From Bacteroidota bacterium (GTDB lineage Bacteria > Bacteroidota > Bacteroidia > Chitinophagales > Chitinophagaceae), in NCBI GenBank assembly GCA_013288445.1, contig JABDBX010000009.1, positions 1-44,893 of the forward strand: 44,893 nt of DNA, written 5' to 3'. Every line of letters starts with the position of its first letter. Positions within the stretch are counted from its first letter, which is position 1. The translations under genes and the position numbers were made by a program. This document shows, piece by piece, positions 18,155-33,300 of the stretch. The notes under the pieces are model-generated. The model ran no database searches and was not told the DNA's origin. It was given only the letters and a program-made list of their open reading frames with translations.

Positions 18155-18212
18155 GTTTTTTCCTTCTGTTCGATGGGCGATGCCCGTCGCTGTTAGATTA
18201 CGTCCTTTCAGG

Positions 18213-18516
18213 AAATGTCGTTAAGTTAAGCAAAAAATCGCGATGGATGATGCTGACGGCATCAAACGTTTATAGAAAACCCTATACAGAATGAGTAACG
18301 ATGCCGAAGGTATCGAACCCACGTTTGTTTGGGTTTCCCTTAGTGACGTTGACGAAATAAATACCACTATATGGCGAAGTTATTTTTCGTTTATGCGAGG
18401 CGCAAAATCCGCGAATAGTGAGCTATTTAAGGACTTTTGGGACGAAGCAGAAATGAAAAAGAACAAGTCAGATGGTGGTATTTATTTTGTCATCGTCACT
18501 TAACTTAACAACATTG
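18213..18516. mobile_element. MITE-like element M2 (copy 1), carrying a 159-bp element; 9-bp TSD CCTTTCAGG
   Basis: Ends AAATGTCGTTAAGTTAAG / CTTAACTTAACAACATTG; flanked by CCTTTCAGG at 18204-18212 and 18517-18525. Confidence 0.75.
18342..18500 (+). mobile_element. 159-bp TIR element, copy A
   Basis: AGTGACGTTGACGAAATAAATACCAC...GTGGTATTTATTTTGTCATCGTCACT, 28/32 TIR match. Confidence 0.85.
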
Positions 18517-18535
18517 CCTTTCAGGGCTGTCCAGG

Positions 18536-22998: not shown

Positions 22999-23018
22999 TA
23001 TACTGCAATTGATAATTA

Positions 23019-23177
23019 AGTGACGTTGACGAAATAAATACCACCATATGGCGAAGTTATTTTTCGTTTATGCAAGGCACAAAATCCGCGAATAGTGAGC
23101 TATTTAAGGACTTTTGGGACGAAGCAGAAATGGAAAAGAACAAGTCAGATGGTGGTATTTATTTTGTCATCGTCACT
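23019..23177 (+). mobile_element. 159-bp TIR element, copy B
   Basis: Differs from copy A at four positions, no indels; 29/32 TIR match. Confidence 0.87.
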
Positions 23178-23236
23178 AAAGCAAATTTAGGAATTTATTT
23201 TAGTCGCGGCAGCAAACCATATTATGCGAAAATCAA

Positions 23237-25813: not shown

Positions 25814-26011
25814 ATGAGCAAATTTGGCAATTACGTACAGGAAGCTTATGATGAGTTGATACACAAAGTGAGCTGGCCAACCTGGGAAGAATTACAGCAA
25901 ACTACTATCATAGTGCTGATCGCGCTTGCTATTGTTACCGGCGTGGTATTTGGAATGGATTTCGTTTCAAAGAACGTATTGGAGTTTATCTATAACATTT
26001 TGGGTAAATAA
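25814..26011 (+). CDS. secE: Preprotein translocase subunit SecE
   Basis: YDELIHKVSWPTWEELQQTTIIVLIALAIVTGVVFGMD. Confidence 0.96.
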   Translation: MSKFGNYVQEAYDELIHKVSWPTWEELQQTTIIVLIALAIVTGVVFGMDFVSKNVLEFIYNILGK

Positions 26012-26604
26012 TGATGGAAACTATGAGCGAAACCGCAATCGTCCAGGATGCTAAACCTGCACAGGAAACCAAGTGGTACGTGATACGCGTTATCAGCGGC
26101 AAAGAGAGAAAAGTAAAAGAGTACCTTGACAAAGAGGTAAAGATCAATAACTGGACCAATTCGGTTGTACAGATACTTTGCCCGATAGAAAAGGTTTTCA
26201 AAGTGCTTAACGGTAAAAAGGTGCTTCGCGAGAAGACTTTGTTCCCGGGCTATATACTGCTTGAAGCAAATGATGGCAAGCTAACTGACGATATCATTCA
26301 TGCTATTAAGAATGTTACCGGCGTTATCCACTTCTTAGGCAAGGAGCATCCTACGGCGCTTCGCAAATCGGAAGTGAACAAGATGTTTGGTAAGATGGAT
26401 GAAGTGAGTGAGCAGGGCATCAGCTATGCAGAGCCATACATCATTGGCGAAACAGTGAAGATAGTGGACGGGCCATTCAACGATTTCAACGGCACAGTGG
26501 AAGAAATAAACCAGGAGAAAAAGAAGTTGAAGGTGGTGGTAAAGATATTTGGCCGCGCTACACCGGTGGAACTGAATTATATGCAGGTAGAGAAAATTGC
26601 CTAA
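26011..26604 (+). CDS. nusG: Transcription termination/antitermination protein NusG
   Basis: KWYVIRVISGKERKVKEYLD, LFPGYILLEA, IVDGPFNDFNGTVEEINQEKKKLKV. Confidence 0.97.
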   Translation: MMETMSETAIVQDAKPAQETKWYVIRVISGKERKVKEYLDKEVKINNWTNSVVQILCPIEKVFKVLNGKKVLREKTLFPGYILLEANDGKLTDDIIHAIKNVTGVIHFLGKEHPTALRKSEVNKMFGKMDEVSEQGISYAEPYIIGETVKIVDGPFNDFNGTVEEINQEKKKLKVVVKIFGRATPVELNYMQVEKIA

Positions 26605-26762
26605 GGAACGTTGACGAAATAAAGTACACCATATTGCGAAGTTATTTTTCTTTTTTACGAGGCGTAAAATCTGCGAATAATGAATTATTTAAAGACTTTT
26701 ACAACGACGTAAAAATGGAAAAGAACAAGTAAGATGGTGTACTTTACTTTGTCATCGTTCCT
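26604..26762 (+). mobile_element. 159-bp TIR element, copy C (diverged)
   Basis: AGGAACGTTGACGAAATAAAGTACACCAT...ATGGTGTACTTTACTTTGTCATCGTTCCT; gapless with A and B. Confidence 0.85.
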
Positions 26763-26787
26763 AAGCAACAGAACAATAATATTTACG

Positions 26788-26818: not shown

Positions 26819-26823
26819 TTATT

Positions 26824-27202
26824 TATACTTTGCACCGCATAGTTTTGTGCATTTGTAAAAGGGGTTTTCGTTCATACCGAACCTTCGATGTATAGGACAT
26901 CGTTACATGGTCAAGCCCTGTAAGGCAATGTCATTAAGTTAAGGAAAAAGCAGAGCCGAATGATGCAGTTGATAGCATATTCGGGTGTATTCCCCCTTGC
27001 GCGTAGGCCATGTGCGCCGACGAAGGGGGAAAGGGGGATGTCCCGACACGCGCTTGGAAGAAGGCAATACCCCTGACTTGCCCTTAACTTAACGACATTG
27101 CCTGTAAGGGCGAAATCTAATAGCGATGGGCATCGCCCATTGAACTTGCGCAGGACACGAAACTACACACCGAATGCACGAAACTATCCCATTTGCAGTA
27201 TA
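26824..27202. mobile_element. M1 MITE-like element (TATACT ends), interrupted by M2
   Basis: TATACTTTGCACCGCATAGTTTTGTGCATTTG at left; right end reverse complement TATACTGCAAATGGGATAGTTTCGTGCATTCG. Confidence 0.75.
26926..27100. mobile_element. M2 MITE-like element (copy 2), nested in M1; 9-bp TSD CCTGTAAGG
   Basis: Ends CAATGTCATTAAGTTAAGG / CCTTAACTTAACGACATTG; CCTGTAAGG at 26917-26925 and 27101-27109. Confidence 0.82.
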
Positions 27203-29809: not shown

Positions 29810-29942
29810 TAAATTCCAAATTTTTAAATTCCAAATCCCAAGTGGGATAAATTCCAAATATCATTTATCAAATTCCAAAGGGAGGAAATCCCAATATTGA
29901 AATTCCAAATCCCAATTCACAAATTCCCAATGGGTTAATTCC
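29810..29942. repeat. AAATTCCAAA array (left arm of inverted pair)
   Basis: Multiple AAATTCCAAA or close variants at irregular spacing. Confidence 0.8.
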
Positions 29943-29980
29943 ACATCCGAATTTATATATTCAGCTTCAACCTTATTAAA

Positions 29981-30373
29981 TTAAGCATTGGCACTTGCCG
30001 TTAGCTTATTGATAATTGCAGAAAATATTTTCCGCAATTCCGTTACTTCTTGTTTTAAATAATTTAATTGTTCTGCTTCTTCAACTATCAATAGTTCCAA
30101 CCGGAATATTGTTTCTTTCGCCTCTTTTCTTGATATTCTTATTCTATACAATAAATCCTGTTTGCCTAAATGCTCGTTTGCTTCAATATAATTTGCTCCT
30201 ATGGAAGACGAAGAGCGAATGACCTGCTGAATATACACCCTGTTTATCACATCCTGTTTTAAATTCCTGCAAAAATCCCTTACATCCTTAGCAAATTTCA
30301 AACACCTCAATTCCAGTTCATTCATACCATCATCATTTTTGGATTTTGGAATTTCAACTTTGAAATTTATCAC
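29981..30373 (-). CDS. Four-helix bundle protein (S23 / 23S rRNA intervening-sequence protein family)
   Basis: LKFAKDVRDFCRNLKQD, QVIRSSSSIGANYIEANEHLGKQDLLYRIRISRKEAKET; start may be the internal MNELELRC. Confidence 0.9.
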   Translation of the reverse strand: MINFKVEIPKSKNDDGMNELELRCLKFAKDVRDFCRNLKQDVINRVYIQQVIRSSSSIGANYIEANEHLGKQDLLYRIRISRKEAKETIFRLELLIVEEAEQLNYLKQEVTELRKIFSAIINKLTASANA

Positions 30374-30445
30374 TTTTGGAATCTAAATTTTGGAATTTAA
30401 CCCTCTGGGCCTTGGAATTTGGAATTTACGCTTTGGAATTTGACA
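30341..30445. repeat. TTTGGAATTT array (right arm, inverted relative to left arm)
   Basis: TTTTGGAATTT, CTTTGAAATTT, CTTGGAATTTGGAATTTACG, CTTTGGAATTTG. Confidence 0.8.
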
Positions 30446-30446
30446 C

Positions 30447-33098: not shown

Positions 33099-33296
33099 TA
33101 TACTTCAAATGGGGTGTTTTCGTGCATTTGGGGTTGTGTTTCTGCCATACGCAAGTTCGATGGGCGATGCCCATCGCTATTAGATGCCGCCCTTTCAGGG
33201 CTTGACCATATGGCGATACCGCGCATCTAAGGTTAGGTACACTTATGAACGAAACCCCTTTTAACAAATGCACAAAACTATGCCGTGCAAAGTATA
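33099..33296. mobile_element. M1 MITE-like element, uninterrupted copy (inverted relative to 26824-27202)
   Basis: TATACTT ends; CGATGGGCGATGCCCATCG hairpin; intact GCCCTTTCAGGGC palindrome. Confidence 0.78.
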
Positions 33297-33300
33297 GATC

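Follow-up and report, generated by a model that had tools for sequence, protein, structure and literature searches.

The window analyzed here, a stretch of 44,893 nucleotides that makes up contig 9 of a 3.05-Mb, 65% complete Chitinophagaceae assembly, carries three copies of a 159-bp element with terminal inverted repeats (TIRs). The first-pass annotation had placed these copies at 18342–18500 (copy A), 23019–23177 (copy B) and 26604–26762 (copy C), and direct inspection of the sequence bears out these positions, all on the forward strand, as well as an alignment over the full 159 bp that requires no gaps. Copies A and B are 97% identical and belong to one subfamily, with the arms AGTGACG..CGTCACT in copy A; copy C, 80% identical to copy A, has the arms AGGAACG..CGTTCCT. 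Each copy is bracketed by a 3-bp target-site duplication (TSD), namely TTA at 18340–18342 and 18500–18502 for copy A, for which a paralogous empty site exists, TAA at 23017–23019 and 23177–23179 for copy B, and TAA at 26602–26604 and 26762–26764 for copy C. Within copy C, the left arm (26604–26637, element positions 1–34) is paired with the right arm (26729–26762, positions 126–159), and the conserved core, as delimited by an alignment of 60 diverged copies, occupies 26641–26725 (approximately positions 38–122). This core contains an inner stem with conserved A.G and U.U mismatches, an internal loop with the motif AGGCG / CAACG, and a tip of AATAA/TTATT. The left TSD of copy C is also the stop codon of a NusG-like gene (26011–26604), and copy B lies upstream of an Rpn-like gene, about 20 bp from its start.

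The arms of copy B match at 30 of 34 positions, a value to be compared with at most 19 in 20,000 shuffles, and the RNA fold z-scores are −8.4 for copy A (folded on 150 nt), −12.0 for copy B and −10.7 for copy C. It had been proposed that every change in one arm is mirrored in the other. This holds for the differences that are diagnostic of A/B versus C (positions 3, 4, 21, 22, 23, and 32), but not for changes private to a single copy: position 27 of copy A is an unmirrored G.T wobble and 16/144 of copy C an unmirrored A.C mismatch, so the mirroring rule is limited to subfamily-diagnostic changes. The mismatches reported at positions 8, 13, and 30 are indeed present in all three copies and are joined by a fourth fixed mismatch at position 33; the two left-arm strings originally quoted for the subfamilies are inaccurate, their lengths being one letter apart.

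Beyond the 32-bp TIR, the entire element forms one imperfect hairpin. Among 60 diverged copies, 95.7% of alignment cells are paired and 29 pairs have changed on both sides, with a covariation score of 0.333 compared to 0.148 for shuffled and at most 0.090 for slid partners (the structure scored came from the same alignment, which favors it). A register-only test on 39 copies, which involves no energy model, also found the arms to agree with the pairing. On a tree built from the core alone, 147 arm changes lead from one Watson-Crick pair to another, as against 1–14 in slid controls; these counts are inflated by shared descent and by the poor resolution of the core tree, whereas the contrast to the slid controls is not. 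Covariation extends to the inner stem, and across genera the arms are less conserved than the core, with positions 9–19 (TG..AAATAA) being the best-conserved part of the ends. Because the paired arms stand far above the slid controls, independent variation of the arms, which would speak against a constrained stem, is not what these many additional copies display. The first-pass suggestion of a constraint on the stem, whether as an RNA hairpin or as a TIR for a protein acting in trans, is thus supported under shuffling, register, and descent controls.

The element is mobile and MITE-like. It is 159 bp long, contains no long ORF, occurs in many dispersed copies, and has both TIRs and TSDs, which are the general features of prokaryotic MITEs. 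Among 162 unique complete copies, the flanking 3 bp read TTA on both sides in 59 and TAA on both sides in 50 (together 109), with 10 mixed, and the preferred target has a C before and a G after it (C-TWA-G). When the flanks of copies are joined, they align over the junction to paralogues that lack the insert and retain a single target. Three of the six empty-site pairs shown are clean (copy A, L013, and L033), and the paralogues of L010 and L004 have a T-C-A-like site with no exact TWA; the tandem copy L025 was excluded as empty-site evidence. By a crude ORF rule, 108 of the 133 copies with enough flank are intergenic, and roughly 15 have a stop codon no more than 1 bp away, with the TAA of the TSD serving as the stop, as in copy C. 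In tandem gene contexts the top strand of the element is antisense in 45 cases and sense in 16 (p=2.6e-4), a ratio composed of 25:5 in the own genome and 20:11 in other genomes, the latter not significant alone. This bias could reflect either the loss of insertions that place a stable hairpin in an mRNA or replication-linked insertion. In a set of 150 neighboring genes the only recurrent families were common ones, for example response regulators, and neither a transposase nor a Y1 family appeared among its 25 commonest Pfam families. The Rpn-like PD-(D/E)XK 'transposase' next to copy B (PF12784, 22156–22998) was considered as a partner and rejected, as it is not recurrent among these neighbors.

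In the own genome, BLAST with copies B and C found 72 complete places, and a covariance model built from the 60 diverged copies found approximately 97 copies in the 65% of the genome that is represented. The copies group into subfamilies, each with its own arms. Lengths of 157–160 bp dominate in all genera; copies of 170–215 bp are lengthened by additional hairpin modules, located either close to the tip (TCCCGATAGCTATCGGGA) or on the left (TAACTGCCATAGCTTTAGCGAAGGCATGTTAT). Deletion forms of ~50–90 bp also exist. The palindrome TCCCGATAGCTATCGGGA stands in place of the tip segment AGGACTT (L033, L035, and L056–L058) and occurs in copies of the AGTGACG as well as the AGGAACG subfamily, which implies either an exchange between the two or more than one gain or loss. 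Of 150 genomes sampled from the host family, 8 contain the element, counting the own genome, as do about two dozen named assemblies, including Flavipsychrobacter stenotrophus and a Taibaiella MAG; many freshwater Bacteroidetes MAGs also carry copies. One copy (L165, CANCGR010000542.1) sits on a contig of a MAG labelled Gammaproteobacteria, which is probably a misbinned Bacteroidota contig. A search of plasmids and phages returned no match, and viral contigs with the TIR pattern proved to be chance matches in coding sequence. An apparent 3.8-kb composite element (G080:C684) resolved into one complete and one partial copy around host genes. Among the papers searched, none describes such an element in Chitinophagaceae or Flavipsychrobacter.

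The window contains other repeats as well. A second family, with the end GGCAATGTCATTAAGTTAAGG, occurs at 18168–18253, 18499–18528, 26898–26966, 27073–27157, and 33143–33199, and copy A sits inserted in one of its members. Because this end resembles the TIR of DDE_Tnp_1 (PF01609) insertion sequences in carrier genomes (L230: AAGGCAATGTCATTGACTTAAGGA; L236), the family probably represents either a MITE derived from that PF01609 insertion sequence or what is left of it. Near it lies a third inverted-repeat pair (26821–26876 / 33244–33299; 56 nt, 91% complementary) that also recurs elsewhere in the genome. Short AATTCCAAA-type direct repeats cluster at 29812–30446 around a gene from the family of 23S rRNA intervening-sequence proteins.

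The hairpin is not equivalent on the two strands. RNA of the top strand gives the more stable fold in all 130 of 130 copies, with a mean of −62.6 vs −47.3 kcal/mol. Wherever the top strand carries a G.T pair, the bottom strand has an A.C mismatch; if G.T outnumbers A.C, it is therefore the top strand that has to fold. On internal branches of the whole tree, which represent lineages with descendants, we counted 22 G.T and 4 A.C states, compared to 65 and 43 on terminal branches; the core tree gave 19 to 3 and 76 to 44, respectively. The same division is seen in the two large subfamilies of the own genome, where private arm changes comprise 6 Watson-Crick, 15 G.T, 12 A.C, and 18 other states, and arm states found in at least three copies comprise 8, 5, 0, and 1 (paired against unpaired, p=6e-4, with a small shared sample of 14 states). 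A skew that is present in propagating lineages and absent from private changes is most simply read as a sign that pairing counts when a copy becomes a parent and not when it merely stays where it is. Top-strand folding thus appears to be needed for spread, but not for resident copies, and this gives a hint that the mobilizing enzyme acts on a folded single strand.

The same data bear on two other accounts of the paired arms. Many of the double changes pass directly from one Watson-Crick pair to another with no visible intermediates, as would be expected if template-directed correction of a quasi-palindrome during replication kept the arms alike without selection on structure. However, such correction should erase the mismatches at positions 8, 13, 30, and 33 and those of the core, yet most copies and genera retain them. 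Nor would it lead one to expect the preference for G.T over A.C in propagating lineages; we consider it improbable as the explanation, and it may contribute in part. The compensatory changes, tolerance of G.U pairs, and conserved loops also form an RNA-like pattern, such as would be left by a family of structured non-coding RNA genes, or by an RNA regulator, whose copies the host cell retained for their function. Against this, resident copies decay regardless of pairing or of G.T versus A.C, they adjoin unrelated genes with the antisense excess given above, they are accompanied by TSDs and empty sites, and their number reaches ~125 in one genome as opposed to ~5 in a congener. At its cut-off, Rfam recognized only a tRNA in the window and matched no family to the element, and a relaxed search returned generic microRNA-precursor hairpins far below the cut-off. 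We regard an RNA retained by the host as very improbable.

The covariance model also matched 13 other genomes of the class, from seven other families, nearly all of them with several copies. They have ends and TSDs of their own: AGG..CCT with TWA, TACC..GGTA with TNA, and TGG or TGTC ends with CTAG. The hairpin and a similar core are kept despite the other arms, and the internal-loop motif RAGGC..AACGnG was found at the expected place in 33 of 58 matches, compared to 0.8% of shuffles; the strict form of this pattern is absent in genomes G178, G267, G356, and G288. The best groups (G317, G178, and G180; E ~1e-14 to 1e-20) make convincing relatives, and the weakest (G389, G356, and the f10 genomes) could be convergent hairpins. 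One of the genomes, G267, holds ~125 near-identical copies of a relative (L340–L370) and its congener ~5, which looks like a recent burst. We tentatively suggest, as a possibility short of an even chance, that these elements form a mobile superfamily across the Bacteroidia that is defined by its folded core and would move via a folded top strand, as single-stranded DNA or RNA, yet leave a 3- or 4-bp TSD, with the arms and the type of target free to change.

For the element itself, we lean toward the interpretation that it is a non-autonomous, MITE-like element of ~157 bp that is mobilized in trans and whose spread requires the top strand to form one long hairpin with conserved mismatches. The mobilizing protein, provided in trans, would recognize or process the folded top strand, be it single-stranded DNA, RNA, or an extruded hairpin. 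Recognition would rely chiefly on the conserved core with its internal loop, leaving the arms free to change sequence provided that they still pair, and the same or another enzyme would make a 3-bp staggered cut in the target. Single-strand (Y1/HUH) transposition is not known to leave a TSD, and the TSD observed here is therefore a point against a single-strand mechanism. It would fit a conventional MITE derived from an IS5-like or another DDE transposon, in which the two TIRs are bound in duplex form by a single transposase, the arms covary through coevolution of transposase and TIR or through descent from different parents, and the inner hairpin is incidental or deters loss. IS5-family groups have a TSD of TNA or CTAR, and Tourist/Harbinger elements TNA or TWA. 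The precise ends and the fixed 3-bp TSD at TWA agree with such an origin, the TNA and CTAG of the relatives match the group TSD types of the IS5 family, and the conservation of positions 9–19 is what a binding site would be expected to show. In contrast, the core is more conserved than the outermost arms, the inner stem covaries as well, and a duplex TIR offers no reason for G.T to be favored over A.C or for the top strand to fold more strongly in every copy.

A search for the mobilizing enzyme also bears on the duplex-binding alternative. In a non-exhaustive survey of PF01609 and PF13359 loci in 10–11 carrier genomes, we found no transposase with the ends of the element: PF01609 transposases in 11 genomes have other ends, and PF13359 is nearly absent from carrier genomes. 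The apparent natural burst in G267 makes it a genome in which the mobilizing gene should still be present; none of 28 loci in that genome contained a long element with the same ends, and the one long span considered as the parent (L351) holds a cell-wall/alanine racemase gene and has a chance match as its second end. Inverted TIR pairs 60–6000 bp apart in the examined loci yielded no autonomous parent, and solo TIRs in the own genome, which might have been ends of a parent, are truncated or deleted copies. Overall, no autonomous element sharing the ends was present in the loci searched, the own genome being 65% complete. On balance, a duplex-binding DDE transposase seems to us a possible but rather unlikely explanation. 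Y1 genes occur in all 10 genomes, with a copy of the element in only one of ~30 Y1 loci examined (L268). As these searches found no mobilizing gene, the route of movement by the folded top strand is argued from sequence only.

The way in which palindromic bacterial MITEs move, ERIC and YPAL among them, has long been an open question. In this family, the sequence record allows changes in multiplying copies to be told apart from those in copies that did not multiply, and it is solely the changes of the multiplying copies that respect pairing of one strand, which makes single-strand recognition directly testable. In uncultured freshwater bacteria the family reaches ~100 copies per genome, and it is also present in a named species, Flavipsychrobacter stenotrophus. 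It also carries a caution, in that strong covariation, usually taken as a sign of functional RNA, can stem from mobility.

Among known systems, ERIC (also IRU; Enterobacteria, 127 bp) and YPAL (also RU-2; Yersinia, 168 bp) are mainly intergenic non-coding repeats with TSDs whose transcripts fold as long stem-loops, and for which the mobilizing enzyme is not established (PMC2229807). The present element is likewise small (100–200 bp), non-coding, mainly intergenic, flanked by a TSD, and folded into a long hairpin. It differs in host phylum, in sequence as far as searches go (Rfam gathering level), and in its TSD, which is TWA here versus TA-type in ERIC and 3–26 bp in YPAL. In addition, covariation, strand asymmetry, and the restriction to propagating lineages were measured here, and the core is better conserved than the ends. 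The Correia (NEMIS) element of Neisseria is also a MITE with TIRs and a TSD whose RNA forms a long stem-loop (PMC2229807); its 24-bp TIR is conserved, whereas the outer arms here vary freely yet stay paired.

REPINs form a hairpin over the whole element with compensatory stem changes (PMC3116915), and in REP sequences conserved hairpin mismatches are needed by TnpAREP, a single-strand transposase, for the processing of one strand (PMC8266576), which sets a precedent for the mismatches kept here. The element resembles both in its whole-element hairpin, conserved mismatches, and strand rule. REPIN ends, however, are conserved with GTAG-type tags, in contrast to ends that vary and a TSD that is present here. 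In place of end palindromes tagged with GTAG or CGTC, the arms have CGTC, CGTT, TCTC, or CCTT, and there is no recurrent linkage to a RAYT (Y1) gene. With IS5-derived MITEs and with Tourist/Harbinger elements, Harbinger being related to IS5 (PMC12730594), it shares a 3-bp TSD. Its TWA and the TNA and CTAG of its relatives are in keeping with IS5-family MITEs, and the PF01609 and PF13359 loci of the partial survey have other ends than the TIR that such MITEs would share. Membership in the IS5 family or in REP/REPIN is established in neither case; the TSD types recall the former, and the mismatches and strand rule the latter. By mechanism, our analysis would place REPINs perhaps nearest. The element is best described as MITE-like and akin in kind to ERIC, YPAL, and Correia (PMC2229807, PMC10969869), and what is new is its host group, its target, an inverted conservation in which the core exceeds the outer arms, and a strand-specific constraint on propagation.
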